Part shown: one piece after another, positions 657 through 64,000 of the stretch
How the letters are laid out: every line of letters starts with the position of its first letter
Numbering within the stretch: position 1 is the first letter of the stretch
NCBI RefSeq assembly: GCF_900106535.1
Contig: NZ_FNOH01000010.1
Location: 62,001 to 126,000 of the forward strand
Reading direction: 5' to 3'
Length of the DNA stretch: 64,000 bases
Source: Myxococcus xanthus
Lineage (GTDB): Bacteria > Myxococcota > Myxococcia > Myxococcales > Myxococcaceae
Translations under genes and position numbers: made by a program
The notes under the pieces: model-generated
What the model saw: only the letters and a program-made list of their open reading frames with translations
What the model was told of the DNA's origin: nothing
Database searches by the model: none

Positions 657-2195
657 ATGAAACGACTGCTCAGCCTCTTCGTCGCCCTGGCGCCGCTCGC
701 GGTGTCCGCCCAGCCTGATTCGGGTGGCTACAACCGCGCGCTGGCCGCCTTCAACGCCGGTGACATGGACACCGCCGCACCCCTCTTCTTCGAACTCGCG
801 GAGAGCGCCTCCGACGCGGAGGTGAAGGGCAAGGCGGAGTACTTCCTCGGACAGTCCTTGGCCCAGAAGGGCCTGCCCGTGGCCGCCTTCATCACCTATG
901 CGGCCATCGTCAATGCCGGACCCTCGCACCCCTCGTATCTCAAGGCGGTGGAGGGACTGGTGGACATGCAGCAGCAACTGGATGAGCACAACCTCATCCC
1001 CAGCATCCTCAACCAGGCCTACACCGACGAGGTGCGCGACCGCTGGGTGACGCTGCCCAAGGAGGTGCTCGCGCGCATCAACTACCTGGTGGGCACGGTG
1101 AGCCAGCGCAAGAGCCGCTTCGAGGAAGCGCGCTCGCTGCTGGAGGCGGTCCCCCAGGACAGTCGCGTGTACGCGAAGTCCCGCTACCTGCTCGGCGTGG
1201 TGCTGGCGGACCCGCGCTTCCCGGGCCGTCCCAGCGAGGCCTCCGTGTTGGACAAGGACGCGCTGGCCGCCTTCAACGCGGTACTGGCCGCGAAGGAGGG
1301 GCAGTTGGACTTGCGCGCCACGCAGCACCTGGCGCTCATCGCCCTGGGCCGGCTCCACTACCGCCGCGGTGAGTACACCGACGCCAGCGCCGCTTATGAG
1401 CGAGTGCCGCGCTACTCGCGCTACTGGGACCAGGCCCTCTTCGAGAACGGCTTCGCGCGCTTTCAGAACGAGGACTTCGGCGGGGCGCTCGGCAGCCTCC
1501 AGGCGCTGCATGCGCCGCAGTTCGCCGGGGCCTTCCAGCCCGAGTCGTGGATTCTCAAGGCGACCGTCTATTACTACTCGTGCCTCTACGACGAGGTGAA
1601 GACGACGCTGGCGGCCTTCGACGAAATCTACGCTCCCATGGAGCGGCAACTGGAGCCCTTCACCGGGGAGGACGTGCCGCTGGTGCAGTCCTTCAACCTG
1701 GTCGCGGCGGAGAACCGCCGGTTGCCGCGCCCGGTATACCTGTGGCTTCGCAACAACGAGCGCATCCGCGAGGTGATGCGGATGCTGGAGCGCGTGGACG
1801 ATGAGAAGCGTGCGCTGACGAACGGACGCTGGCGCGGTACGCCGCTGGCGGCGCAGTCCACCGCGTCGCTCGAGGAGGTTCGCGGGACGCTGCTGCAGGT
1901 GGGCGGAACGCTGGCGCAGAGCCGCATTCGTGAGGCAGCGGACAACCTGCGGACCTTCTCCGACCAGGCGGAAATCATCCGCGTGCAGACGGCCTTGGAT
2001 GAGAAGGACTTGTTGCAGGCCGGCGTTGACCAGAAGGCGCTGCTGACGCGGCAGTCGCTGTATCGCCCGAAGATGCCGAGCGCGGCCTGGAACTACTGGA
2101 AGTTCCAGGGCGAGTTCTGGATCGACGAGATTGGTTATTACCAATACACGCTGAAACGTGGCTGCCCGGCGAAGACCGCTGAACAGCAGCCGTAG
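657..2195 (+). CDS. nfsC: Periplasmic TPR protein (NfsC-like)
   Basis: A 512-residue protein with a signal peptide (MKRLLSLFVALAPLAVSA, cleavage after about residue 18) followed by helical repeats: an early TPR-like pair (YNRALAAFNAGDMDTAAPLFFELA), then others around residues 150-300 (RRGEYTDASAAYERVPRYSRYWDQALFENGFARFQNEDF). No catalytic motif is visible, so the likely role is a protein-protein scaffold in the periplasm or at the outer membrane. It follows the barrel gene by 23 bp and precedes the giant TPR gene, the order expected for nfsC/gltC. The downstream gap contains a strong hairpin (2232-2273), so it may end a transcription unit. Confidence 0.7.
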   Translation: MKRLLSLFVALAPLAVSAQPDSGGYNRALAAFNAGDMDTAAPLFFELAESASDAEVKGKAEYFLGQSLAQKGLPVAAFITYAAIVNAGPSHPSYLKAVEGLVDMQQQLDEHNLIPSILNQAYTDEVRDRWVTLPKEVLARINYLVGTVSQRKSRFEEARSLLEAVPQDSRVYAKSRYLLGVVLADPRFPGRPSEASVLDKDALAAFNAVLAAKEGQLDLRATQHLALIALGRLHYRRGEYTDASAAYERVPRYSRYWDQALFENGFARFQNEDFGGALGSLQALHAPQFAGAFQPESWILKATVYYYSCLYDEVKTTLAAFDEIYAPMERQLEPFTGEDVPLVQSFNLVAAENRRLPRPVYLWLRNNERIREVMRMLERVDDEKRALTNGRWRGTPLAAQSTASLEEVRGTLLQVGGTLAQSRIREAADNLRTFSDQAEIIRVQTALDEKDLLQAGVDQKALLTRQSLYRPKMPSAAWNYWKFQGEFWIDEIGYYQYTLKRGCPAKTAEQQP

Positions 2196-2231
2196 GTTCA
2201 CGAGCGACGCTGTCACGCATGCACGTACCTT

Positions 2232-2273
2232 GAGGGGCCGGCTCCACGCGACACCGCGTGGAAGCGGCCCCTC
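2232..2273 (+). terminator. Strong hairpin between the two TPR genes
   Basis: GAGGGGCCG at 2232-2240 pairs with CGGCCCCTC at 2265-2273, and inside it CCACGCG (2244-2250) pairs with CGCGTGG (2255-2261) around an ACAC loop. The sequence after it is TGTCGTTGTT, a modest U tract. It looks like an intrinsic terminator or attenuator within the nfs-like cluster. Confidence 0.6.
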
Positions 2274-2409
2274 TGTCGTTGTTGACAGTGCGCAAGCACC
2301 GTTCCACCGCCACTTCTCAATCCAGAAATGCGCATCTACTTTCCGTCGTCCCTCGTCAGTGGGTGCTGGATTGCCCGCATGCCGGGTCGGCTTCACGGCA
2401 GGAGCTCGC

Positions 2410-5400
2410 ATGAAGGTGGTTCTTCGTTTCGGTGCGCTGGCGGTGGGCGCGGTGCTCATCACTGGCGGGGTGGGAGAGGCGGCGGAAACGCAGGCCCGCA
2501 AGGGGGGGAAGAAGCCCGCTGCGGCGTCCGCGTCGAAGACCTCCGGTGCGTCCAGCAAGGCGGGCGGGAAAAAGAAGTCCGCGAAGGCCCAGGTCGACCG
2601 CAAGGCAGAGGAGAAGGCTCCGCCGCCGGGGGTTGCGCCGGAGGACGTGCGGCAGGGGCCGGCGCGCGTTCAGCCCGCGTCGGCGAAGTTCGCGGAGCTG
2701 CCCCGCATCCCGGACGCCAAGCGGGACGCGCTGGCGGACAAGAAGCGCGACGAGGCCATTGCCGCCTTCAAGCGCCTCATCCCCAAGCTGCGGGACGGCA
2801 ATCCGCAGAAGGCGGAGATGCTCTACCGCCTGTCGGAGCTCTACTGGGAGAAGTCCAAGTACCTCTACCAGTTGGAGATGACGCGCTTCCTCGCGGCGGA
2901 GAAGGAATACGACGCGGCCGTGGCGCGCGGCGAGAAGGTGGAGCCGCCCAAGAAGAACCACGCGGACAGCGAGCGCTACCGCACCGAAACGATGGGCATC
3001 TACGAGGACATCCTCCGCGCGTACCCGGATTATCCCCAGCGCGACGAGGTCCTCTTCTCCATGGGGTACAACTACTACGAGCTGGGACGCCGCGAGGACG
3101 CGGTGGCCCGCTACGAGGAGTTGATCCGCGACTTCCCGAAGTCGCAGTTCGTGCCGGACGCGTACATCCAGCTCGGCAACCACTACTTCGAGAACAACAA
3201 GCTCATCCCCGCCAAGGAGAACTATGAGAAGGCGCGGGACTCGGGCGTGCCGAAAATCTACGGCTACGCCGTCTACAAGCTGTCCTGGTGCGACTACAAC
3301 ACCGGCGACTACGAGCTGGGGCTGAAGAAGCTCCACGAGGTGGTGGACTACGCCGCGAAGAGCCCTGAGTTGGGTGACCTGCGCACCGAGGCGCTCAACG
3401 ACCTGACCGTCTTCTACGTCCAGTTGGACCAGCCGAAGGAAGCCATCGCCTACTTCAAGGAGAAGGCGCCGGCGCAGCGCGTGGGCCGCCTGCTGGCCAA
3501 GACGGCCGCGGGCCTGGTGGACGCGGGCCACTTCGACAGCGCCATCCTCGCGTACCGCACGCTCGTGGACGACGAGCCCATGGGCGCCAACGCGCCGGAG
3601 TACCAGCAGGCCATCGTCCGCGCCCACGAGGGGCTCCGCCAGCGCCAGTTGGTCCGCAAGGAAATGAAGCGGATGGTGGACCTCTACAGCCCTGGTGGCG
3701 GGTGGTGGAAGGCCAACGAGGGCAAGACGGCCGTCCTGCGAAACGCCTTCAACGTCACTGAAGAGGCCATGCGCGTCATGGTCACCGAGTACCACCAGGA
3801 GGCGCAGAAGACGCGCCAGGTGGAGACCTACCGGCTGGCGCGTGACATCTACAAGCAGTACGTGGACGCGTTCGCCTCCAACGCGAACCCGGACTTCGTG
3901 GCGGACTCCGCCTTCAACCTCCGCTTCTTCTACGCGGAGATCCTCTGGGCTTTGGAGGAGTGGGAAGCGGCCGCGGCCGAGTACGACGCGGTGGTGGCCT
4001 TCAAGATTCCGGACCGCGACACCGCGCGCGAGGTCTCCAACGAGGCGTACCGCAAGAGCGCCGGGTACAACGCCATCCTCGCCTACGACAAGCTGGTGAA
4101 GATCGAGCGAGGCCAGCTCGCCAAGAGCGACCTGCGCGACGGCCAGAAGGTCGACGAGAAGAAGGACAAGGGCGACGTCGCCAAGCAGAAGATCGTCAAG
4201 CGCGACGCGAAGGACCGCCAGGAAGAGGCGCTCACGAAGTTCGAGGACCGGCTGGTCGCCGCGTGTGACGTCTATGTGAAGCTGTATCCGAACACGCAGG
4301 ACGAAATCGACCTGCGCTACCAGGCCGCCGTCATCCTCTATGACCGCAGCCACTTCGTGGACGCGGCCCGGCGCTTCGGCGAAATCATCGAGAAGTTCCC
4401 CGAGGAGCGCCGCTCGCGCGACGCGGCCGACCTCACCATGTACGTGCTGGAGAGCCGCGAGGAGTGGCTCGAGCTGAACACGCTGTCGAAGAAGTTCCTG
4501 GAGAACAAGAAGCTGGCCAAGCCCGGAACGGACTTCGCCGTGCGCGTCAGCCGCGTCGTCGAAGGCAGCCAGTACAAGTGGGTGGACGAGGTCGTCTACA
4601 AGAAGGAGAAGAACCCGAAGAAGGCCGCCGAGGAGTTCCTCCGCTTCGTGTCCGACTTCCCCAAGTCAGAGAACGCGGACCGTGCGCTCACTTACGCGAT
4701 GGTCATCGCGCAGGAGGCGGGCGAAATCGACAAGGGCCTGGCCGCGGGTGAGCGCTTCCTCAAGGAGTACCCGCGCAGCCCCTTCGAGCTGAAGGCGCGT
4801 TACTCGCTGGCGGGCCTCTACGAGAAGGTCGCTGAGTACCGGAAGGCCGCCGTCATGGCGGAGTCCCTCGTCGCCAGCTACGACGCCGCGATGAAGGCGG
4901 ACGATGCCAACGGCAAGCGCAAGGCGACCAAGGCGGCCGCCAAGGTGAGCGTCGCGCCGGGCGCCGAGGACGCGGAGTCCAAGCGCGAGCGGGTGGCCGC
5001 CGAGCGCAAGGCGCTGCTGGAAGAGGCCGGCGGCTGGATGGCGGATGCGCAGTTCAATGCGGGCGTCTGGTGGGAAGGCGCGGGTGAGCCGCAGAAGGCG
5101 GTGGCTGCCTACAACACGTACGTCTCCCGCTTCAAGGACCGCAAGGACGTGCCGCAGGTGGCCTTCGCGGCGGCGCTCGCGTGGGAGAAGGAGAAGAAGT
5201 GGAGCGAGGCGGCCCGGGCGTTCGGCGCCTTCGCGGAGACGTACGGCCGTGACTCGCGCTCCAGCTCGGCGCAGGTGTACCAGGCGCGCTACCACGAGCT
5301 GCTGGCGTACGAGCACCTGAGGAACGCACGCGAGCAGGAGCGCGTGCAGGGCGAGCTGGTGCGGGCGTGGAACCGGCTGCCGGAGAGTGCTCGCAAGGAC

Positions 5401-6065: not shown

Positions 6066-7514
6066 ATGACCTGGTTCCGTTCGCTCCTCGTCGGCTCGCT
6101 GGCCTTTACGGCGGCGTGCGCCTCGGGGCCTCAGAAGAAGCAGACCGCTGCGCCGGAGGTGACGCCGCCCGCGGCGCAACAGCCCGCGCCCGAGCAGAAG
6201 CCGGTGCCGCCTCCCGCGCAGAAGTCCGGCAGCGCGCAGTCCGCCTTCGCGGCGGCGCTCCAGTCCTATGAAGCGGGGGACCTGGACGGTGCGCGCAAGG
6301 GCTTCGAGGCGGTGGTGGATGAACTGCCGCAGAGCCTCAACGCGCAGTTCAACCTGGGCGTCATCGCGGAGCGCCAGGGCCGTCCGGATGACGCGCGCGT
6401 GGCCTACGAGAAGGTCCTCCTGTTGGACCCGGCGCACGTGCCCGCGGTGGTCAACCTGGGCGTCATGTATCGGGCGCAGGGGCGGCTGGACGAAGCCATC
6501 GCGTTGTTCCAGCGGGCGCTGAAGACGCCTGGTCGCGAGTACGACGCGTCGCTGCTCAACAGCCTGTCCATCACCTATCGCGTTGCCGGAAAGCTGGACG
6601 AGTCCGAGGCCGCCGCGCGCCGCGTGCTGGTGCGCAACAAGGACGACCCGGGGGCCTACAAGAACCTGGCGCACGTGGCCTACGCACGGGAGAAGTACCG
6701 GCTGGCGGAGCTGCTGGCCGGCACCGCGCGCAAGCACTCGGAGAACGACCCGGCGCTCTACAACCTGCTGGGCATGGTCTACCTGAAGCTGGACGACCGG
6801 GCGCGCGCGCTGGTGCAGTTCCAGAAGGCCATCTCCCTGGATGCGAAATTCACCCCGGGCTACCTCAACCTGGGCGCCCTGGCGCTGAGCTACCGCGACT
6901 ACGTGGGCGCCGAGCGCTCCTTCGGAAAGGCCGTGGAGCTGGAGCCGGGCTCACCGGACGCGACGCTGTACCTGGCCTGGGCGCTGGACGGGCAGAAGGG
7001 GCGTGACCCGAAGAAGGGCCTGGCCGCGGGCGAGGCGTTCGAGAAGGTGCTGGCCACGCGCGCGGACCTGCCGGAGGCCGTGTGCGGCGCGGGCTGGGCG
7101 TATGCGTCGGACCGCGCGGGCTGGCAGAAGGCCATCGCGTTCCTCGACCGCTGCAAGGGCCTGGAGACGACGACCGACAATGACAAGCAGATGATCACCG
7201 CGAAGGTCCAGGGCCTGCAGAACATGCTCAAGGCCCCACCACCCGAGGCCGCGCCCGCCACCGCGGAAGGGGAAGGCGATGGCGCTCCGGCGGATGAGGC
7301 CATTGGCGGCGGTGGTGCGCAGCCCGCGGGGGGCGCCGAGGGCGTGGCGCCTGGACAGGGCTCGGATGTGGCGCCGGAAGGCGATGCCACGGGCGGCGCG
7401 GGCGCACATCCTGGGCAGGGCACTGATGCGATGCCCGCGGACGACGCGACCGGTGGCGTGGGCAGTGGGGCGCCGCTTGCTCCCGGTGGGAAAGGCACGC
7501 CCGCGGGCAAGTGA
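6066..7514 (+). CDS. nfsE: TPR lipoprotein (NfsE/GltE-like)
   Basis: From ATG 6066 the protein is 482 residues and starts MTWFRSLLVGSLAFTAAC, a lipoprotein-like signal with Cys18, although Thr at -3 is not the commonest lipobox residue. An in-frame ATG at 6015 overlaps the preceding stop (ATGA) and would add 17 residues before the hydrophobic stretch; I prefer 6066, which has GGGGAAG upstream. Residues about 60-370 are TPR repeats (FEAVVDELPQSLNAQFNLGV, LLGMVYLKLDDRARALVQFQ). The last 100 residues are Gly/Ala/Pro-rich low complexity. Order and build match NfsE and the gliding protein GltE (AglT). Confidence 0.7.
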   Translation: MTWFRSLLVGSLAFTAACASGPQKKQTAAPEVTPPAAQQPAPEQKPVPPPAQKSGSAQSAFAAALQSYEAGDLDGARKGFEAVVDELPQSLNAQFNLGVIAERQGRPDDARVAYEKVLLLDPAHVPAVVNLGVMYRAQGRLDEAIALFQRALKTPGREYDASLLNSLSITYRVAGKLDESEAAARRVLVRNKDDPGAYKNLAHVAYAREKYRLAELLAGTARKHSENDPALYNLLGMVYLKLDDRARALVQFQKAISLDAKFTPGYLNLGALALSYRDYVGAERSFGKAVELEPGSPDATLYLAWALDGQKGRDPKKGLAAGEAFEKVLATRADLPEAVCGAGWAYASDRAGWQKAIAFLDRCKGLETTTDNDKQMITAKVQGLQNMLKAPPPEAAPATAEGEGDGAPADEAIGGGGAQPAGGAEGVAPGQGSDVAPEGDATGGAGAHPGQGTDAMPADDATGGVGSGAPLAPGGKGTPAGK

Positions 7515-50596: not shown

Positions 50597-53062
50597 TCAG
50601 AGGTCCAGCCGCTTCAGCCGCAGGGCATTGGCGATGACGGAGACGGACGAGATGCTCATCGCCGCGCTGGCAATCATGGGGCTCAGCAGCAGTCCGAAGA
50701 ACGGGTAGAGGACCCCCGCCGCGATGGGGACGCCGAGCACGTTGTAGATGAACGCGAAGAAGAGGTTCTGGCGGATGTTGTGCACGGTGCCCCGGCTCAG
50801 GTGCCGGGCGCGGACGATGCCTCGGAGGTCACCCTTCACCAGCGTGACGGCGGCGCTCTCCATGGCGATGTCAGTGCCCGTGCCCATGGCGATGCCCACG
50901 TTGGCCTGGGCGAGCGCGGGCGCGTCGTTCACCCCGTCTCCGGCCATGGCCACCACGTGGCCTTCGGCCTGGAGGCGCTTCACCATCGCGTTCTTCTCCT
51001 CGGGGCGCACCTCAGCGTGGACTTCGTCGATGCCCAGGCGCCGGGCCACCGCCTCCGCCGTCGTCCGGCTGTCACCCGTGAGCATCACGAGGCGCAGCCC
51101 ATCGGCACGGAGCTGCTGAACGGCTTCGGGGGTGCTGGCCTTCACCGGGTCGGCCACGCCGAGCAGCCCGGCCGGCTTGCCGTCCACGGCGACGAACATC
51201 ACCGTCTGCCCTTCTCGCCTCAGGGCCTCCGCCCTCTCCAGGAACGCCCCTGCCTCGATGCCGAGTCCCTCGAGCAGCCGGGCATTCCCGAGCGCCACCT
51301 GCGCACCATCCACACGCCCCGTCACGCCCTGGCCCGTCACGGACTTGAAGCCGTGCGTCTCGGTGAGGACGGCACCACGTGCCTCTGCGCCCTTCACGAT
51401 TGCGGACGCGAGCGGGTGTTCGCTCCCGCGCTCGATGCTGCCGGCCAGGTGAAGCAGCCGCGCCTCGTCGAAGCCGGGGGCGGCCACCACCGTGGTGAGG
51501 CTCGGCCTGCCCTCGGTGAGGGTGCCCGTCTTGTCGACGACGAGGGTGTCCACCTTCGCCAGTTCCTCGAGCGCCGCCGCGTCCCGGATGAGGACGCCGG
51601 CCTGCGCGCCACGCCCCATGCCCACCACGATGGAGATGGGAGTGGCCAGGCCCAGGGCGCACGGGCACGCGATGATGAGAACGGCCACGGCGTTGACCAG
51701 CGCGTGGGCGAGCCGGGGCTCTGGTCCCCACATGCTCCAGATGAACGCCGTGAGGACGGCGATGACCACCACCGCGGGCACGAACCACCCGGAGACGGTG
51801 TCGGCCAGACGCTGGATGGGGGCCCGGCTGCGTTGGGCCTCGGCCACCCGCTGTACGATTTGAGAGAGGAGCGTGTCGCGGCCGACGCGCTCGGCCCGTA
51901 TCACGAAGCCGCCGGTGCCGTTGACCGTCCCTCCTGTCACCCGGCTGCCAGGTGTCTTCTCGGAGGGAATCGGCTCACCTGTCACCATGGACTCGTCCAC
52001 GGCGCTCTCGCCCTCCAGGACCACGCCATCCACGGGCACCTTCTCGCCCGGTCGGACGCGGAGGCGGTCACCCACGTGGACCCCGTCCAGCGCCACGTCC
52101 TCTTCGCGCCCGTCCTCGCGCAGCAGTCGCGCCGTCTTCGGGGCCAGCCCGAGCAGCGCCTTCAAGGCTCCCGAGGTGGCATGGCGGGCCCGGAGTTCCA
52201 GCACCTGCCCCAGCAGCACCAGGGTGGTGATGACCGCCGCGGCCTCGAAGTACAAGGGCACGTGGCCGCCGTGGCCGGTGAAGGCGTGGGGCAGGAGGCC
52301 GGGGAAGAAGGTGGCGAAGACGCTGAAGCCGTAGGCGGCGCCCGTCCCAAGGGCAATCAGCGTGAACATGTTGAGGTGCCGGTTGCGCACCGACGTCCAG
52401 CCCCGCTGGAAGAAGGGCCAGCCCCCCCACAGCACCACGGGCGTCGCCAGGGCGAACTGCACCCAGGCCATGAGCGGCCCTGGGATGAGGCGCTGGATGG
52501 GCTGGCCCGGAATCATCTCGGACATGCCCAGAACGAACACAGGGAGCGAGAGGACGACGCTCACCCAGAATCGCCGCCGCATGTCGAGGTACTCCGGGTC
52601 GGGCGCGTCCTCAAGGGTGACGGTCCGTGGCTCCAGGGCCATGCCGCAGATGGGGCACGCTCCCGGCTCGGGCCGCACGATCTCCGGGTGCATCGGGCAG
52701 ACGTACTCGGTGCGCGTCTGGAGGACCGGCTGCTCGGGCTCGAGGGCCATGCCGCACTTGGGGCAGGTGCCGGGATGGTCCTGCCGCACTTCCGGGTCCA
52801 TCGGGCAGATGTACATGGTGCCCGCGGGGGCAGGCTCCGGCGGCTGGGGCTCGGGCGCGAGGTACTTCCGCGGCTCCGCCGTGAACTTCTCGCGGCACTT
52901 CGGGTTGCAGAAGAAGTACGTGTGCCCCTCGTGCACATGGCTGCCGCCCTTCGGTGCCTGGGGATCCACGAACATGCCGCAGACGGGGTCCTTCGTCTTG
53001 CCCTCCGGCAGGTGCGGAGGGTGGTGCCCGGTGTGAGCTTCTGGGGGGAGATGAGTCGTCAT
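50597..53062 (-). CDS. P1B-type copper/silver ATPase with YHS and two metal-binding N-terminal domains
   Basis: An 821-residue heavy-metal ATPase from ATG 53062 (AGGAAG upstream). There is no CxxC HMA domain; instead residues 23-65 form a YHS domain (DPVCGM, then FFCNPKC) and two heavy-metal-binding units ([22 protein letters not shown], Cys86/100/103; [22 protein letters not shown], Cys122/136/139). The core has [11 protein letters not shown] (about 469), DKTGT (about 510) and GDGVNDAP (about 705). CPC and this N-terminus indicate Cu(I)/Ag(I) export. It heads the operon with cytochrome c and DUF5666, under a sigma-54 promoter. Confidence 0.92.
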
Positions 53063-53211
53063 CGTCGCGCTTCCTTTTGCCGGGATCACGAAGCACCCCG
53101 TTCCTTCTTACAGTTCCGAGCGAAGCGGCCTGTCGCCCGAAGCGGGCCCATGGCTGCCTTCCAGGAATGCTCTCAGGGCGAACCCGTGCGGCTTGTCAGC
53201 TCGGGTAACAA

Positions 53212-53226
53212 GCAACCCCGAGGCCA
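53212..53226 (-). promoter_or_regulatory. Sigma-54 (-24/-12) promoter of the YHS P-ATPase operon
   Basis: On the minus strand TGGCCTCGGGGTTGC, followed by T, matches the consensus TGGC-N7-TTGCW at both cores. The predicted start is near 53200; the palindrome centre is about 87 bp upstream. Confidence 0.65.
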
Positions 53227-53278: not shown

Positions 53279-53295
53279 GTAACCCGCGCTGTTAC
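53279..53295. promoter_or_regulatory. GTAAC-N7-GTTAC operator, ATPase promoter
   Basis: GTAAC (53279-53283) and GTTAC (53291-53295) are perfect inverted arms. The same GTRAC-N7-GTYAC pattern occurs at 58251-58267 and 60531-60547, each upstream of -24/-12 promoters of copper genes. Confidence 0.6.
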
Positions 53296-55303: not shown

Positions 55304-56704
55304 TTAGGGTGACTCCTTGAAGTCATCGGAACGCAGGCCAAAGCGCTTGAGGAGCCGGTGGAGGCTCTCGCGCTCCATGCCCGCGCGTTCAGCAGCCCGC
55401 GTCACATTGCCCCCGAATTCCCGCAGCAGGGCGATGAGGTAATCGCGCGATGCACGGTCCCGCGCCAGGTCCACCGCCTCCCGGAAGGGCATCTTCACCA
55501 GATGGTCTACGGGCAGTGCTCCCTGTTGTCCGCCCGTGACTTCAGGGGGGAGTGCGTCAGGGCCCACTCGGGAGCCAGTGGTGATGGCCACCGCGCGTTC
55601 GATGGCATTCTCTAGTTGGCGCACGTTGCCCGGCCAGGTGTACCCGGTGAGCGCACGCAACGCGTCCGGCTCCAGGCCATCCACCGGCTGCCGGTAGGTC
55701 TTCGCCGCCTTCTGTACGAAGTGCATGGCCAGCAGGGGGATGTCCTCGCGCCGCTCCCGCAGGGACGGCAGATGCACCGGGAAGACATTGAGCCGGTAGT
55801 AGAGGTCTTCGCGGAAGCGGCCCGCAGTCACTTCGGCCTTGAGGTCGCGGTGGGTGGCGGTGATGACGCGTGCGTCGATGCAGCGCGCAACCGCGTCTCC
55901 GACACGGCGCACTTCCTTGTCCTGGAGCGTGCGGTTGAGCTTCACCTGAACGGACAGGGGCAACTCTCCAATCTCGTCCAGGAAGATGGTTCCCCCGGAG
56001 GCTGCCTCGAAGAGACCGGCCTTGGTCTCTACCGCGCCAGTGAAGGCGCCCCGGGCGTGACCGAACAGCTCGCTCTCGATGAGTTCGGAGGGCAGCGCGC
56101 CGCAGTTGACCGCAATGAAGGGCCGGTCCTTGCGTGGGCCGTCGTGGTGGATGGCCCGCGCCACCAACTCCTTGCCCGTCCCCGTCTCCCCGGTGATGAG
56201 CACCGTGATGTCCAACTGGGAGGCGCGCTCCAGCAGGCCGTAGAGCGCACGCATGGGCGCGCTCCTGCCAATGATGTTCTGGAAGCTGTAGATGCCCTCC
56301 AGCTCGCGCCGCAGTGAGGCGGCCTGCTCCTTGAGCCGCTTGCGCTCGACGGCGCGGGCTACCACCAGGGACGCCTCGTCCGGGTCGAAGGGCTTGGGCA
56401 GGTAGTCGTAGGCCCCCTCCTTGATGGCCTCTACCGCCTTGGGGACGGAGGCGTACGCCGTCATCAGGATGACCTCGGTGGTGGGCGCGTGCTGCTTGAC
56501 GGCCTTGAGCACCTCGAAGCCGTCCGCTCCTGGCATTCGGATGTCCGTCACCACCACGTCGAACGGCTGCGTCTGGATGAGGGAGAGCGCACGGCCTCCG
56601 TCTTCAGCCGTCCTCACCTGATAAGCGTCACCGAGAATGCGGGTGATGAGGTGGCGCATGTTCTCCTTGTCGTCGACAACGAGAACACTCGGTCTGTCCG
56701 TCAC
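55304..56704 (-). CDS. NtrC-family sigma-54 response regulator of the copper island
   Basis: A 466-residue protein: receiver domain with the phospho-acceptor Asp54 ([13 protein letters not shown]), AAA+ with Walker A GETGTGKE (about 168) and GAFTGA (about 233), then a Fis helix-turn-helix ([21 protein letters not shown]). Its start overlaps the kinase stop by four bases (ATGA). It needs sigma-54, and the -24/-12 promoters of this island are the natural targets; the palindrome GTRAC-N7-GTYAC is the natural binding site. Unrelated to the PocR-type activator at 13943. Confidence 0.93.
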
Positions 56705-58128
56705 GGCGTACTCCGGGGGAGATGCAGGGTGAATTCCGCACCACGTCCAGGCAGGTTGCGCGGCTGGATGCGCCCACCATGGGCCTGGGCGATGGCCTGC
56801 GACACCGCCAACCCCAGCCCGGTGCCATGGGGTTTGGTGGTGAAGAAGGGCTCGAACATCCGCTTCTGTGCCTCGGGAGAGAGGCCGGGCCCGCTGTCGC
56901 GGAATGAAAGCGCCACCTCGCCTTCGTGGGCCTGGATGGCCACTGTCACCTGTCCAGAGGGACCTGCGGCCTCCATGGCGTTCTTGACCAGGTTCGTGAC
57001 CACCTGCCGCAGCCGCTGCGGATGCCCTGCCACCTGGGCTTCGCCTTCCACCGTCAGGGATGCCGCGGAGTGCTGGGCGGACTCCCGCTGCCGGGAGACG
57101 ACTTCCTCCACCAGCTCTCGCAGCTCCAGCGTCTCGCCCGGGACCTGGAGGGGCCGCGACAGGTCGAGCATCCCCTCCACGATGTCACGGCAGCGCAGCG
57201 TCTCCTCTTCGATGATGCGCAGGTCGTCCGCGAGCGCACCCTCCGCCTTGCGCTGAAGCAGGCGCACGTAGCCGAGGATGACCCCTAGGGGATTGTTGAT
57301 TTCATGCGCCACGCCCGCCGCGAGGCGGCCGATGCCCGCCAGCCGCTCGCTTTGAACCAGGCGCTCCTGGTGCTCGCGTAGCGCGGCGGTCATCCGGTTG
57401 AACTGCTGCGCCAGCCTTCCGAACTCATCCGGGCGGTCCAGCGCGATGCGAGTCATGAGGTCGCCCGCGGCGATACGGGCCGCGCCGGCCTCCAGCAGTG
57501 AAACCGGGCGGGCCACCGAGCGGCCGATGTAGAGGCCTACGCCCGCCGCGAGCAGGGCGGCGGCGGCCAGGATGGCGACCGTCCACTGGAAGCTGGCGTG
57601 CTGGACCGTGCTCGCGTGCTCCTCGAAGTTGCCAATGGCGCGCTCGTAGTGCGAGGCCAGGGTGTCCGCGCTCTCCTGGATGACGTCGACCAGTTCCAGG
57701 GCCCTGGCGTGTTCACGGGCCGCGGTGGCGTGGTCCTCGCGCAGCACGGCTGGCACGAGCGCCTCGCGGAAAAGCCGGTCCAGCTCCGTCGTGGTGCGGC
57801 GCATGGTCTCCACCTGGGCGCGTTCCTCGGAGGTGGTGGCCTGGGCTTGTACCGCTTCGAGCCGCTCCATGGCACGGTGATAGGCGCTGTCATAGAGCGG
57901 CAGGTGGCTGGCGTTGCCGAGGATGACGGTGTGCGCCTGGTGTGCGTAGAGGTCTCGCACCGAGGTCGCGAGCGACAGCGTGGTGCGCACGGCCGTTTCC
58001 TGCCGCCGCACGCTGTGCAGGGCCTCGTGGATCTCCGCCATGCCCTCGAGCGCGGCATAGGCTGCCGCGCCGAAGGTCAGGACGAGGAGCGAGAAGGCGT
58101 ATAAGAGCCTGCGAGCGGTTCCGGACAC
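56701..58128 (-). CDS. Membrane sensor histidine kinase
   Basis: About 475 residues from GTG 58128. The in-frame TTG 58176 is rejected because the -24/-12 promoter (58161-58175) overlaps it and an AGGGGATG site precedes the GTG. It has TM1 (about 5-27), a periplasmic helical sensor of about 150 residues with scattered His and Met, TM2 (about 180-203), HAMP, the H-box VAHEINNPLG (about 274), N-box NLVKNAMEAAG, and FEPFFTTKPHGTGLGL. No classic Cys/Met copper cluster is seen. Cognate of the adjacent NtrC-type regulator, and likely copper-responsive by context. Confidence 0.9.
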   Translation of the reverse strand: MSGTARRLLYAFSLLVLTFGAAAYAALEGMAEIHEALHSVRRQETAVRTTLSLATSVRDLYAHQAHTVILGNASHLPLYDSAYHRAMERLEAVQAQATTSEERAQVETMRRTTTELDRLFREALVPAVLREDHATAAREHARALELVDVIQESADTLASHYERAIGNFEEHASTVQHASFQWTVAILAAAALLAAGVGLYIGRSVARPVSLLEAGAARIAAGDLMTRIALDRPDEFGRLAQQFNRMTAALREHQERLVQSERLAGIGRLAAGVAHEINNPLGVILGYVRLLQRKAEGALADDLRIIEEETLRCRDIVEGMLDLSRPLQVPGETLELRELVEEVVSRQRESAQHSAASLTVEGEAQVAGHPQRLRQVVTNLVKNAMEAAGPSGQVTVAIQAHEGEVALSFRDSGPGLSPEAQKRMFEPFFTTKPHGTGLGLAVSQAIAQAHGGRIQPRNLPGRGAEFTLHLPRSTP

Positions 58129-58160
58129 GACATCCCCTGGCGAACGAAGGTAGGGATTTA

Positions 58161-58175
58161 GCAACAGGCAGGCCA
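58161..58175 (-). promoter_or_regulatory. Sigma-54 promoter of the kinase/regulator operon
   Basis: TGGCCTGCCTGTTGC, followed by T on the minus strand, is a full TGGC-N7-TTGC match. Predicted start near 58149, about 20 bases before the GTG at 58128; this supports that start codon. Confidence 0.65.
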
Positions 58176-58248
58176 ATGTGGTGCGCGCTGCAAGTGGCTG
58201 AACTCATTCCTGGGCGGCGTTCCCTCATCGTTGCGAGAAAAGGGCCGG

Positions 58249-58269
58249 GTGTGACCAGGCTGGTCACAC
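58249..58269. promoter_or_regulatory. Perfect palindrome GTGTGACCA-GGC-TGGTCACAC upstream of the kinase operon
   Basis: Nine-base perfect arms around GGC. Its core fits GTGAC-N7-GTCAC (58251-58267) and lies about 110 bp upstream of the predicted start. Strongest copy of the shared copper-island motif. Confidence 0.65.
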
Positions 58270-58335: not shown

Positions 58336-59781
58336 TTACTGGGAACCCTCCGCATGGACGTCCACGAGCGTCATCATCCCAGCCTCGGCGTGCTCTTGGA
58401 TGTGGCAGTGGAGCATCCAGGCCCCCACGTCCTGCGGGAACATCGCCACATCCACCGTCTCTCTTGGACGAATCAGCACGGTGTCGCGCCAGTGTCCCTC
58501 GTCCACCGATGCACCATTGCGTGCCACCACCCGGAAGAACTGGCCATGCACGTGCATGGGGTGCAGGCGGGAGGACTCGTTGACGAAACGCAGCGTGGCC
58601 CATTGGTGGGCAGGGAGCCGGTAGACCTTGTGGTGCGCGGAGGCATGCTCCCCCTCGTGGTGGAACGCCTCGTCATTGATGGTCCACTCGATGCCGAAGG
58701 GGCCTCCTCGCCTCGCATTCAGCCGAAAGGTCTCCGCGGGTTGCAGTGCACGCGCTGGAGAGAGGTCAGGACTCGGGGGCGGGGCAACTGCTGCCACTTC
58801 GGGTGGCCGCACGACCTCTCCAGACACCACCAGCGTTGCGAGAGGGAACGGCCTGCGGGTGAAGTGGTCCATCACCTCCATGCGCTGGTTGCTCAGCGCC
58901 TCGGGAACGGTGAAGTCCAGGTCGACGCGGTTCCCTGGAGCGAGCTCCAAGCGGGAGGCCGGCTGCGGCCGGTCCGTGGCCAGCCCGTCGATCGCGATGA
59001 CAGATGCGCCCAGCCCTTCGAAGGAAGGCGCGAACACGCGCCCGTTTGCAACGTTGACCATCCGCAGTCGCACCCGCTCGCCGGGCTGCAGCGGGACTTC
59101 TGGCTGGACAGCCCCGTTCACCGTGGAGACCTGCCCCCAGCGGCCGTCGTGCGCGAGGTCGTGGCGCGTGTTGAATCGGCCGTCAATCTGGCCACTCGCG
59201 TCGAGTCGCCAGTCGTCGAGCACCCAGACGAGCTCGCGTGAGAAAGGACCGGGCTTCTGGTCCTCCACGATGAGCACGCCGAACAGCCCTCGCTCGACTT
59301 GCTCGCTCCCGCGCAGGTGCGGGTGAAACCAGTAGGTTCCTGCGTCCTTCACTTTGAACTCATAGAGGAAGGTTCCCCCAGGTGGGATGGGAGGCTGGGT
59401 CACCCCGGGCACGCCGTCCATTCCGTTCGGAAGACGGATGCCGTGCCAGTGAATGGTCGTCGGCTGCGGCAGCTTGTTGGTGAATCGCACGCGGACCGTG
59501 TCGCCATGGGTGGCGCGAAGGGTGGGGCCGGGTACCTGGCCGTTGTAGGCCCAGACCTCCAGACTCCGGCCATCCAGGAGCGGGAGGGCTGTCGGGGCCG
59601 CGACGAGCTCGAACTCGCGCACGCGGCCCGTGGACGGGGTGTCTTCAGGGTAGGGCGGTGCCACGCGCGGCTGCCGGAGCGTCGCCATGGCGGCATCATC
59701 CTCCTGGCCGAGGCCGAGTGCCGCGAGCATTGCGAGGAGGGCAACGAGAGCTGCCGCGATGAACCAGCGATTGCGATGCAT
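58336..59781 (-). CDS. Multicopper oxidase
   Basis: A 481-residue exported oxidase (signal or anchor MHRNRWFIAAALVALLAMLAALGLG). The copper ligands are all present: HWHG (His111, His113), HPH (153, 155), HPMHVHG (407, 410, 412) and HCHIQEHAEAGM (458, 460, 464 with axial Met469). Three cupredoxin domains as in CueO and laccases. The usual CueO Met-rich insert is absent. It oxidises Cu(I) to Cu(II) or organic substrates in the periplasm. Likely cotranscribed with the cupredoxin gene 117 bp upstream. M. xanthus has several such oxidases (CuoA-C); which one this is was not established. Confidence 0.93.
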   Translation of the reverse strand: MHRNRWFIAAALVALLAMLAALGLGQEDDAAMATLRQPRVAPPYPEDTPSTGRVREFELVAAPTALPLLDGRSLEVWAYNGQVPGPTLRATHGDTVRVRFTNKLPQPTTIHWHGIRLPNGMDGVPGVTQPPIPPGGTFLYEFKVKDAGTYWFHPHLRGSEQVERGLFGVLIVEDQKPGPFSRELVWVLDDWRLDASGQIDGRFNTRHDLAHDGRWGQVSTVNGAVQPEVPLQPGERVRLRMVNVANGRVFAPSFEGLGASVIAIDGLATDRPQPASRLELAPGNRVDLDFTVPEALSNQRMEVMDHFTRRPFPLATLVVSGEVVRPPEVAAVAPPPSPDLSPARALQPAETFRLNARRGGPFGIEWTINDEAFHHEGEHASAHHKVYRLPAHQWATLRFVNESSRLHPMHVHGQFFRVVARNGASVDEGHWRDTVLIRPRETVDVAMFPQDVGAWMLHCHIQEHAEAGMMTLVDVHAEGSQ

Positions 59782-59898
59782 GAAGCCTCTTCACGAATGG
59801 ATGGAAGCTGCGGGCGAGGAGGGGACCAGGCCGCCGTGGTGGCGTGGCCCGGCCCCGAGGCGCGTGACCTCGGTGCGCAGCCTGCCCGGAACGGCGGT

Positions 59899-60372
59899 CT
59901 ACTGGATGGTGACGAGCCCGCTGATGTGGTCCATCGCGCAGGCGTAGCGCAGCGTGCCCGACTTGCTGGGGGTGAACTCCACGGTCACCGGCGTGTCCAT
60001 GGGGAGCGGCTTGTTGATGCCCAGGTCGGCCATGACGATTTCCGTGGCGCACGTCTTGGCCGTCTTGCGCGTGACCACGAGGCGGACGGGCTGCCCCGCC
60101 TTCACCTTCACGTCCGAGGGCTCGAAGCCCTTGGGGGTCACCGTGAGGTCCACGGTCTGGACGCCATTCCTGGTGGCCGGGGCCGAGGCGGGCTTCTGTG
60201 CGGGCGCAGCGGCCTTCTTGGCCGTGCCTCCGAGCGCGGAATGATCGCCGTGCTTGGCGTGCTCGCCGTGGCTGGCGTGCTCGCCGTGCTTGGCGTGCTC
60301 GTCACACGCGACCGCGGGGGCCGCGGCAATCAGGGGGAGTGCAGCAAGGAGTCCCATCAGGCTCTTCTTCAT
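59899..60372 (-). CDS. Exported cupredoxin-like protein with His-rich spacer
   Basis: A 157-residue protein from ATG 60372 (MKKSLMGLLAALPLIAAAPAVA signal). A His-rich segment (EHAKHGEHASHGEHAKHGDH) follows. The C-terminal cupredoxin domain has Cys in RKTAKTCATEIVMADLGI and CAMDHISGLV; the Met/His in CAMDH are probable copper ligands. Related to the short cupredoxin at 63199. It is upstream of the multicopper oxidase on the same strand and divergent from the second ATPase, under a -24/-12 promoter. Possible periplasmic copper carrier. Confidence 0.83.
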   Translation of the reverse strand: MKKSLMGLLAALPLIAAAPAVACDEHAKHGEHASHGEHAKHGDHSALGGTAKKAAAPAQKPASAPATRNGVQTVDLTVTPKGFEPSDVKVKAGQPVRLVVTRKTAKTCATEIVMADLGINKPLPMDTPVTVEFTPSKSGTLRYACAMDHISGLVTIQ

Positions 60373-60441
60373 CGCTTGGTTGCTCCCAGAGTGAGGATGC
60401 TCTCGAGGACGTCCGGCATCCCGTGAAGTCGGTCCGCTGGA

Positions 60442-60456
60442 GCACAACGCGTGCCG
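60442..60456 (-). promoter_or_regulatory. Sigma-54-like promoter of the cupredoxin-oxidase unit
   Basis: On the minus strand CGGCACGCGTTGTGC, followed by T. The -24 element GGCACG is full, the -12 is GTGC. The predicted start near 60430 is about 109 bp from the operator centre, like the kinase operon. Confidence 0.55.
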
Positions 60457-60530
60457 AGGGCTGAGCGAGCCTGTTCATGCGGGGTTGCCGTGGCGCGGCA
60501 CCTGTCCGGAGTACCCGGATGGGTTTCGCT

Positions 60531-60547
60531 GTAACCGTCACGGTCAC
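60531..60547. promoter_or_regulatory. Shared palindrome GTAAC-N7-GTCAC in the divergent region
   Basis: GTAAC (60531-60535) and GTCAC (60543-60547), with flanking T and A giving TGTAAC/GTCACA. About 85 bp upstream of the plus-strand start and about 109 bp upstream of the minus-strand start, so one site could serve both. Confidence 0.6.
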
Positions 60548-60549
60548 AG

Positions 60550-60576
60550 GTGGAACGTGGAGCAGCGTCGTTCCAC
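60550..60576. promoter_or_regulatory. Second inverted repeat GTGGAACG-N11-CGTTCCAC
   Basis: Eight-base perfect arms (60550-60557 and 60569-60576), between the shared palindrome and the plus-strand promoter. May bind another regulator. Confidence 0.45.
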
Positions 60577-60597
60577 GGAGCCGTGAAGTGCCGTTCA

Positions 60598-60612
60598 TGG
60601 CCGACACGCTGC
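60598..60612 (+). promoter_or_regulatory. Sigma-54 promoter of the HMA-type P-ATPase
   Basis: TGGCCGACACGCTGC matches TGGC-N8-TGC. The predicted start is near 60624, about 100 bases before the ATG. Confidence 0.55.
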
Positions 60613-60725
60613 GGGTGGCGCACGAGGCGCTGGCCACCGCGGCTGGCCCTCTTCGCAGGTGTAAGCCTTTCGGGGGAGGCGCGTCAGTGGGGTGACCCGC
60701 TAGCTCGCGGGCAGGAGGAAGCCCC

Positions 60726-63011
60726 ATGAATGCCGTTGAAGCAGCCTCGTCCCGGTCTCCCGCGGGCGCCCTGGAGCGGATGGACCTCGCCGTGTCGGGT
60801 ATGACGTGCGCCGCATGCGCGCGCCGCGTGGAACGCACTCTGAGCGAGGTGGAGGGGGTCCAGGAGTGCAGCGTCAACTTCGCCACCCGCCGTGCCAGCG
60901 TACTCTTCGATGCTCGGGCTACGTCCGTCAGTGCACTGGCCGATGCGGTGGCCGACGCCGGCTATCGCGCTGAGGTGCCGCAGGCTTCCACCGCCGAAGA
61001 GACGGACGCCGCGGAGGAGCGAGGGCTCCGGCGCCGGCTCGCCGTGGCCGTGCTCTTCGGCTTGCCGGTGGTCGTGCTGGCCATGTCCCACGGAGCGCTC
61101 GACTTCACCGGTTCCATCTGGGTGCAGCTCGGCCTGACGGTGCCAGTCATGGCGTACAGCGGTGGTCCCATCTTCCGGGCGGCGTGGGCCGCGTTGCGGC
61201 ACAGGTCGGCCGACATGAACGTCCTGGTGGCGCTCGGGACCGGCGCGGCTTTCATTTTCTCGGTGGTGGCCACCGTGTGGCCGACATTCATGGTCACCGG
61301 GGACCACGGAGGTCATGGTGGGCACGGAGCCGCACCCCCCATCTACTTCGAGGCGGCGGCCGCGGTGATTGCCTTCGTACTGCTCGGCCGCTTCCTGGAG
61401 TCGCGAGCACGCACCCGGGCAGGGGATGCCATCCGGCGGCTTCAGGCGTTGGCCCCTTCCATCGCCACCGTGCTGGAGAATGGCGTCGAGCGAGAGGTTC
61501 CTCTCGCCGAGGTGCGGGTGGGGGACCGTGTGGTGGTGCGTCCGGGGCAGTCCATCCCCGTCGATGGCTCCGTCGTGGACGGGGCCTCCTCGGTGGACGA
61601 ATCCATGCTCACGGGGGAAAGCCTGCCGGTGGAGAAGGCCGCGGGCGCGGAGGTCTTCGCCGGGACGATGAACGGCACGGGCCGCCTGGTCTTCCGCGCG
61701 GCCAAGGTGGGGAGTGACACCGCGCTCCAGCAGATTGTCCAGGTGGTGGAGCGGGCCCAGGGCACCAAGGCGCCCATCGCGCGCCTCGCGGACGTGGTGA
61801 GCGGCGTCTTCACTCCGGTGGTGCTGCTCATCGCCATCGCCACGTTCGCGGCCTGGTTCGTCTTGGCCCCCGAGGAGACGCGCCTGACGATGGCCCTGCT
61901 CAACGCGGTGGCCGTGCTGGTCATCGCTTGCCCGTGCGCCCTGGGCCTGGCCACGCCTGCGGCGCTCATGGTGGGGATGGGGCGGGGTGCGCAGCTCGGA
62001 GTGCTGGTGAAGAGCGCCGCTTCGTTGGAAGGCGCGAGCCGTATCGACACCGTGGTGCTCGACAAGACGGGCACGCTGACCCAGGGGCGCCCGGCGGTGG
62101 TCCGCGTCCTCACCGCGAGCGGCATGACGGAGGAGGAAGTGCTGACCCTCGCCGCCGCCGCCGAATCGGCGAGCGAGCACCCGCTGGCCCGTGCCGTCGT
62201 GTCCGAGGCCTCCAACCGGGGCCTGAAGGTCGGAACGCCCGAGTCGTTCACCGCCACTCCGGGACATGGCGTGGAAGCCGAGGTTGGCGGGCGCAAGGTG
62301 CTCGTGGGCAGTCGTCGGATGCTGGACGGACGGGGCGTGTCCGGGAGCGAGGACGCCGAGCGTGTGCTCACGACGGACGGGCAGACGCCCGTGCTCATCG
62401 CGGTGGACGGGCGCTGGGTAGGCGCCATCGGCATCGCGGATCCAGAGCGGGAGGAGGCCGCCACGGTGGTCCAATCCCTGCGGAGCATGGGGCTGCACGT
62501 GGTGATGCTCACGGGCGACCATGAGGGACCGGCCGCACGGGTGGCGCGCGCGCTCGGCATCGACCGGGTCTTCGCCGGTGTACTGCCGTCCGGCAAGGCG
62601 CACGTGGTGCGTACGCTCCAGGCGGAGGGACGGCGCGTGGCCATGGTGGGGGATGGCATCAACGACGCGCCGGCCCTGGCGGAGGCGGACCTCGGAGTTG
62701 CCATGGGGACGGGGACGGACGTGGCCCGGGATGCCGCGGGCGTCGCGCTGCTTCGCTCCGATTTGCGAGGACTGCCGGCCGCACTCGGGCTGGCTCGCAC
62801 CACGATGCGGGTCATCCGACAGAACCTGTTCTGGGCCTTCCTCTACAACGTGCTTGGCATCCCGGTAGCGGCGGGGTTGCTCTACGGCCTGACAGGCTGG
62901 CTGTTGTCACCAATGCTGGCGAGCGTGGCCATGTCCCTGTCGAGTGTGTCGGTGCTGCTCAACAGCCTGCGTCTGCGGCGCCTGCGCCTGCCAGCGCCCC
63001 AGGCGGCCTGA
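60726..63011 (+). CDS. copA: P1B-type copper ATPase, CopA-like with one HMA domain
   Basis: A 761-residue ATPase. One N-terminal HMA domain with GMTCAAC (Cys28, Cys31), then eight transmembrane helices; CPC in [11 protein letters not shown] (about 402), DKTGT (about 444) and GDGINDAP (about 641). The loop [16 protein letters not shown] is His/Gly-rich. It exports Cu(I). It is divergent from the cupredoxin unit and has its own sigma-54 promoter. Compare the YHS-type ATPase at 50597, which lacks HMA; the two probably have different substrates, affinities or chaperones. copA is used as a family name here. Confidence 0.92.
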
Positions 63012-63070: not shown

Positions 63071-63198
63071 TTCGTGCATTCACGGCACCTGTAAGAGCCC
63101 GGCTCTTGGCCCGTCAACAGGGGTGAACGCGGTGGACATGAGGGCGCGACCTGCTCCCTGGCCCGCCGCGTGGAACCTGCGTCCAGGGAGAGAGCGTC

Positions 63199-63579
63199 AT
63201 GTTGGATTCTATCGAAGTGGGAGTCGTCTCTGGCAGCGTGCTGGCCGCGGCGGCCACCGTCCTGTTCTTCTTCGGCCCGCGCCAGCGCACCCGGGCCCGG
63301 AGCGAGGTCGGCGGCGCGCAGGAAGTGGACCTGATGGTGGACGGCGGCTACCGCCCCGACCGCATCGTGGTGCGCGCGGGCGTGCCGGTGAAGCTCAACG
63401 TCCTGCGCACGGACCGCTCCGCGTGCTCGGAGCAGATCGTGCTCGGCGACCTCGGCGTCTCGCGCACGCTGCCCACCGGGCGCGTGGTGACCATTGACCT
63501 GCCCGCGCTCACGCCCGGCGCGTACGACTTCACCTGCGGCATGAGCATGCTGCGCGGCCGCCTCATCGCAGAGGTTTGA
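63199..63579 (+). CDS. Membrane-anchored cupredoxin-like protein
   Basis: A 126-residue protein with an N-terminal anchor (VVSGSVLAAAATVLFFFG) and a cupredoxin-type domain (VDLMVDGGYRPDRIVVRAGVPVKLNVLRTDRSACSEQIV and YDFTCGMSMLRGRL). Cys73 and Cys115 with nearby Met (CGMSM) are the likely metal site. Similar in pattern to the cupredoxin part of the 59899 gene (CATEIV and CAMDH), so the two are paralogues. It follows copA after a hairpin. Confidence 0.8.
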   Translation: MLDSIEVGVVSGSVLAAAATVLFFFGPRQRTRARSEVGGAQEVDLMVDGGYRPDRIVVRAGVPVKLNVLRTDRSACSEQIVLGDLGVSRTLPTGRVVTIDLPALTPGAYDFTCGMSMLRGRLIAEV

Positions 63580-63658
63580 GCCCCGGACCTGTAAGTCGCC
63601 GGCCCCTGCCACGTCCAAGGAGCCGAAGCCGGTCACCTGCTCCGAAAGGAATCCCATC

Positions 63659-64000
63659 ATGAAGAAGCTCCTCGTCCTCTCCTTGTTGTCTCCCCTCACC
63701 GCCTGCGCCGCCGCTCCCTGGAGCGCGCTCGACGAGGATTCCACGTCGCCCACTTCCTTGCGTGCGCCGGAGGCCCCCCGTCCGAATCTGGTCGCTGTGC
63801 TGACAGATGCTGATCCGCTGCGCGCGCCGTCGGGGATTGCCTCCGACGACGGAGTCCAGGGGAGCGACCACGCGGGCCATCACGGGCACCCAGGCGGTCA
63901 TGGTGGCACCGCTCGGCAAGGCAACACGACGGGGCATCCCTCTGGGCACTCTGGCCATGGCGGGCACACGGGGCATGGCGCGAAGCAGGGGAGCGCTCAC
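63659..64000 (+). CDS. His-rich lipoprotein, C-terminus beyond the window
   Basis: Open from ATG 63659 (AAAGGA 8 bases upstream) to the end of the window, 114 codons without a stop. Signal MKKLLVLSLLSPLTAC, lipobox LTAC with Cys16. The last 50 residues are His/Gly-rich (HAGHHGHPGGHGG, HPSGHSGHGGHTGHG). A likely periplasmic copper-binding lipoprotein. The true end is unknown. Confidence 0.75.
   Translation, partial: MKKLLVLSLLSPLTACAAAPWSALDEDSTSPTSLRAPEAPRPNLVAVLTDADPLRAPSGIASDDGVQGSDHAGHHGHPGGHGGTARQGNTTGHPSGHSGHGGHTGHGAKQGSAH

Follow-up and report, generated by a model that had tools for sequence, protein, structure and literature searches.

It is quite probable that the gap at positions 60373-60725 contains two copper promoters that face away from each other and belong to different sigma classes, a sigma-54 promoter directed leftwards and a CorE-type promoter directed rightwards, and that the palindrome located between them is an enhancer of the response regulator CorR acting leftwards. 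All positions refer to the window, that is, to the whole 64-kb stretch of DNA that was analysed. The gap is 353 bp long and separates a minus-strand cupredoxin-like gene from a plus-strand gene encoding a P1B-type copper ATPase. In the minus direction, towards gene A, cuoA, corS and corR, there is good support for the predicted action of the enhancer on a sigma-54 promoter.

Gene content of the locus

Judged by gene order and Pfam content, the minus strand of the window carries an orthologue of the M. xanthus curA copper operon, genes A to H. The order is as follows: the cupredoxin-like gene A (59899-60372; PF13473), the multicopper oxidase gene cuoA (58336-59781; PF07732, PF07731, PF00394), the histidine kinase gene corS (listed ORF 56701-58176; PF02518, PF00512, PF00672), the NtrC-type response regulator gene corR (55304-56704; PF00072, PF00158, PF02954), genes of a PQQ-like and a DUF305 protein, the P1B-type ATPase gene copA with a YHS domain (PF00122, PF19335, PF04945), and the gene of a cbb3-III-like cytochrome. 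Since these genes match the published curA operon, curA copA is located at 50597-53089 on the minus strand, and the name copA, given to the divergent gene in the preliminary description, probably does not apply to it.

By its Pfam domains, CorR combines a receiver, a sigma-54 interaction domain and a Fis-type HTH domain, and its translation contains the GAFTGA motif; thus a sigma-54-dependent regulator is encoded inside the operon. The sigma-54 DNA-binding domain has a single match in the whole genome.

Two listed gene starts seem to need correction. The candidate sigma-54 promoter of corS falls within the start of the listed ORF (58131-58176), and the true start of this gene is probably the GTG near 58131. 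The candidate CorE-type motif of curA copA overlaps the listed GTG start, and hence translation probably begins at the ATG located about 27 bases further in.

Candidate CorR operators and sigma-54 promoters

The palindrome of the gap, GTAACCGTCACGGTCAC (60531-60547), was found exactly where it had been described; its arms GTAACCGT-C-ACGGTCAC pair in seven of eight positions. Three copies of the pattern GTNAC-N7-GTNAC are present in the 64-kb window. These dyads, at 53279, 58251 and 60531, precede copA (53279-53295), corS (58251-58267) and gene A, respectively, all of them genes of the curA operon. The first-order Markov model predicts on average 0.55 dyads per 64 kb, with the maximum of three in 60 simulations. 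As at least one simulation also produced three dyads, we rely on their positions and not on the count alone. In the complete genome, the pattern GTRACC-N6-GTYAC has eight places (10 matches on both strands) versus 11 matches of the control pattern. Three of the eight places belong to curA, and the other five have no sigma-54 promoter scoring above 6.7 within 160 bp. The stricter pattern GTRACC-N5-GGTYAC, read from the same list, is retained at two places, both in curA. The genome search with TGGCACNNNNNTTGC produced 13 matches versus 11 control matches, none of them on this contig.

Candidate sigma-54 promoters were scored with a positional weight matrix (PWM) derived from 12 M. xanthus promoters (PMC9765219, Table 1), the background being 2392 segments of 160 bp from positions 1-48000 of the window. 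The minus-strand promoter claimed in the preliminary description is well confirmed: the site CGGCACGCGTTGTGCT upstream of gene A (60456-60441) scores 13.4 (segment P 0.0017), matches the general sigma-54 consensus in 10 of 13 positions, and shows no variation in any of its 16 columns across five genomes. The candidate promoters of corS (TGGCCTGCCTGTTGCT, 58160-58175, minus strand) and copA (TGGCCTCGGGGTTGCT, 53211-53226, minus strand) score 14.5, a value reached by none of the 2392 segments, and 12.0 (segment P 0.0046). These three sites are the only minus-strand matches scoring at least 11 between 49000 and 60725. Counted from the dyad centre, the -24 element begins 83 bp away at gene A, 84 bp away at corS and 61 bp away at copA. 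Directly before cuoA, neither the consensus nor the PWM revealed a strong sigma-54 site.

Dyads upstream of sigma-54 promoters are a typical form of NtrC-type enhancers. Several lines of evidence point to CorR as the protein that binds the dyad: each of the three dyads at the curA genes is paired with a strong sigma-54 site, this pairing recurs in related genomes, and CorR itself is of the NtrC type, is encoded in the same operon and belongs to a published control system, CorSR (PMC3707914). In the proposed mechanism, phosphorylated CorR would bind the palindrome at 60531-60547 and contact the RNA polymerase-sigma-54 complex at 60456-60441, 83 bp away; this contact would drive leftward transcription of the curA operon, beginning with gene A, cuoA, corS and corR, and the operator copies upstream of corS and copA would feed internal promoters.

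In relatives, the gene A dyad is conserved together with its promoter. Four close genomes (L049-L052) retain the dyads of both gene A and corS, and the corS dyad is present in all eight loci with CorR identity of at least 90% (six exact copies, two with one mismatch), at 82-84 bp. In the loci L056-L059, dyads such as GTAACTGTGACAGTTAC were found upstream of gene A, with a sigma-54 site 82 bp further on; no divergent ATPase was detected in the 11.6 kb of sequence retrieved. The same four loci have no relative of corS detectable by tblastn, though both gene A and orthologues of CorR (86-87% identity) are present, and thus a different kinase may be the partner of CorR there.

At larger distances the picture is less uniform. 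Among 19 loci with CorR identity of 63-70% (L060-L068 and L122-L131), the dyad adjoins corS or gene A in six (L061, L062, L065, L122, L124, L125). Four of these have a gene-side sigma-54 score of at least 10, at 118 bp in L062, 63 bp in L065, 81 bp in L124 and 83 bp in L125. L125 represents another genus; its dyad is accompanied by an identical promoter 16-mer, and its gene A homologue is 80% identical. L124 belongs to another family, its gene A homologue being 58% identical. The gene-side site of L061 is weak (7.1). In L122, the dyad at 6825 lies 38 bp before the corS homologue, and a strong sigma-54 site 111 bp from it points away from corS. Overall, 31 dyads were listed across the loci and 23 were re-scored. 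Those at L062 10226, L112 5518, L113 1766, L114 3300, L115 9236 and L116 9221 were set aside because they do not precede curA-type genes, while L120 and L121 were left out as duplicates of L059 and L056, respectively. On the side that faces gene A, corS or copA, the sigma-54 score is at least 10 in 20 of the 23; the exceptions are L061, L122 (5.7) and L129 (6.2, not near corS). As far as sequence comparison goes, the candidate operator is consistently present among close relatives and occurs patchily in more distant ones.

The dyad might also be the site of another regulator of copper genes, a repressor or an activator, rather than of CorR. Indeed, CorR and the dyad are linked here by sequence, and six of the nine distant loci L060-L068 have no dyad upstream of corS. 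However, the dyads of the window are situated 61-84 bp upstream of strong sigma-54 promoters, and enhancers are usually located at such distances. Moreover, some members of other genera and families with corR again have the dyad next to corS or gene A. Hence we regard a different regulator as very improbable and retain CorR as the candidate protein.

The second inverted repeat of the gap, GTGGAACG-N11-CGTTCCAC (60550-60576), is present as described previously. However, such repeats are expected at a mean of 0.36 per region and occur at least once in 23% of 1000 simulated regions (P 0.23), and its arms change in relatives; it was rejected as a functional site. In L050 both arms are altered, in a matching way.

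The divergent ATPase gene

The ATPase gene (60726-63011, plus strand; PF00122, PF00403) is preceded by the candidate CorE-type ECF promoter motif TGTAAG-N16-CGTC at 60660-60685. We compared ten orthologues of this ATPase (identity at least 82%) from 27 genomes of the genus. The motif, in the form TGTAA-N17-CGT, occurs 66-69 bp before the start codon in all ten. The dyad is present only in the five located beside gene A, and in the five located elsewhere the dyad is absent and no sigma-54 score within 330 bp exceeds 7.5. In L113-L116, where the ATPase is not beside gene A, it is preceded by a conserved stretch, CGCCCGTTGACNATGACGGTTCC, not seen in the arrangement of the window.

The general pattern TGTAAG-N16-CGTS has six matches in the 9.26-Mb genome versus 28 for the reversed control pattern, and five of the six fall in this copper cluster. 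Apart from the divergent ATPase, the motif precedes copA (53087-53112, minus strand; C10:115087-115112 in the genome pattern search), a small cupredoxin-like gene at 63199-63579 (TGTAAG-N16-CGTC at 63090-63115, plus strand), the gene of a His-rich protein at 63659 onward that leads the OEP-cuoB unit (TGTAAG-N16-CGTC at 63590-63615, plus strand), and, past the window end, the gene of an HMA protein of 74 aa. Also outside the window, starting about 3 kb from its end, is a corE-like ECF gene whose product has a Cys-rich tail. These observations suggest that CorE uses the TGTAAG-N16-CGTS motif and that the divergent ATPase is most likely under CorE control. The sixth match lies outside the copper cluster, on contig C8 (L119:3057, minus strand), where it overlaps the start of an ORF of 188 aa; it may be due to chance.

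The divergent ATPase is probably CopB and not CopA, since its gene has the CorE-type motif and lies in the cluster searched by the authors of the CorE study. The assignment is not certain, as a third ATPase has a looser motif and the published list omits the motif-bearing small cupredoxin gene; the literature search did not produce the gene number of copB. The genome encodes three ATPases at least 50% identical to the divergent one, itself included. The looser motif, GTAAG-N16-CGTT, occurs just inside the listed start of the third one (L118, contig C2, ORF 2025-4616, minus strand).

The preliminary description had one enhancer driving both units through two sigma-54 promoters. Then CorR bound at the palindrome would fire both ways, and the ATPase would have, besides the candidate CorE promoter, a sigma-54 promoter on the plus strand, at 60598 or 60616. 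Palindromic enhancers are able to act in either direction; the literature search for shared sigma-54 enhancers at divergent promoters was unproductive. The site implied originally, TGGCCGACACGCTGCG (60598-60613, plus strand), is at chance level (PWM score 5.4, segment P 0.29; 7 of 13 consensus matches, the level reached by 57% of segments), and we rejected it as a promoter. The distances of about 85 and 109 bp from the palindrome to the two starts do fit the starts expected from 60598 on the plus strand and 60456 on the minus strand, but the former site is the chance-level one. A better, although doubtful, candidate is TGGCGCACGAGGCGCT (60616-60631, plus strand). It scores 10.5 (segment P 0.016), and in its favour the score stays at 10.5-11.5 throughout the five divergent loci, although these are close relatives and not independent; among the 23 re-scored dyads, only these five copies of one site have scores of at least 10 on both sides. 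The general consensus disagrees with the kinder M. xanthus PWM, as the site has 8 of 13 matches, a level reached by 31% of segments. Moreover, 4 of its 16 columns vary in the five divergent loci, compared to 40 of 353 across the whole gap, and the -24 GG reads CG in L050. Its distance from the dyad, 77 bp, does not fit the 81-84 and 61-63 bp pattern, the deviation being a considerable fraction of a helical turn.

One precedent for such an arrangement is copA, where a dyad, a sigma-54 site and a CorE-type motif occur in a row and dual control has been published (PMC3707914). On the other hand, if the ATPase is CopB, its expression should depend on CorE, as copB-lacZ was undetectable without this factor (PMC3107203), and the five orthologues located elsewhere lack the dyad. 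Since the site named originally is at chance level, the site at 60616 is more variable than the surrounding gap, and the CorE-type motif is present without the palindrome elsewhere, activation of the ATPase through sigma-54 is unsupported. What remains of the shared-enhancer proposal is its leftward half. Two-way action is possible, but it is unlikely and is not needed to explain the data. We also doubt its evolutionary version, in which the ATPase of the M. xanthus group became a neighbour of gene A and captured its CorR enhancer, so that the dyad would fire both the 60456 promoter on the minus strand and the 60616 promoter on the plus strand, with the candidate CorE promoter of the ATPase acting in addition. 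If such a capture did occur, the response of the ATPase would have two phases, a fast one through CorE and a slow one through CorR. The preferred reading, a leftward CorR enhancer back to back with a CorE-type promoter, would show how the slow (CorR-sigma-54) and fast (CorE) copper responses can adjoin each other in one locus.

Comparison with published copper systems

In M. xanthus, CorSR controls gene A, cuoA, corS and copA, and sigma-54 promoters have been predicted before A, B (cuoA), C (corS) and G (copA) (PMC3707914). The operon of the window has the same content and order of genes A to H by domains, again with a sigma-54-dependent response regulator inside the operon. Strong sigma-54 sites precede A, corS and copA, but, unlike the published predictions, not cuoA. 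A further difference concerns the candidate CorR operator. The main text of PMC3707914 neither contains the words "binding site" nor names the dyad, and no published CorR binding site was found by literature search. The dyad provides a concrete, testable candidate operator. The copper-inducible PcuoA fragment from M. xanthus DK1622 spans 944 bp by its printed coordinates (PMC5559782). This is exactly the length of positions 59782-60725 of the window, and so, by arithmetic and not by alignment, the promoter used in that tool probably contains the dyad.

The ECF factor CorE controls cuoB, copB, a gene of an HMA protein and, less clearly, copA (PMC3107203). Similarly, CorE-type, cuoB, OEP and HMA genes adjoin the end of the window, and the TGTAAG-N16-CGTS motif is found before the corresponding kinds of units, but here also before the small cupredoxin gene. 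The text on CorE promoters mentions AAC in the -35 region (PMC3107203), whereas TGTAAG lacks it; our motif was derived independently of the published logo and may serve as a candidate motif of CorE promoters around the CorR operator.

Finally, the dyad resembles the enhancers of the NtrC type in being a 17-bp palindrome, GTRACC-N5-GGTYAC, with a centre of 5 bp, and in its location upstream of sigma-54 promoters. It differs from the NtrC site itself in the sequence of the half-sites and in that there is one dyad per promoter.
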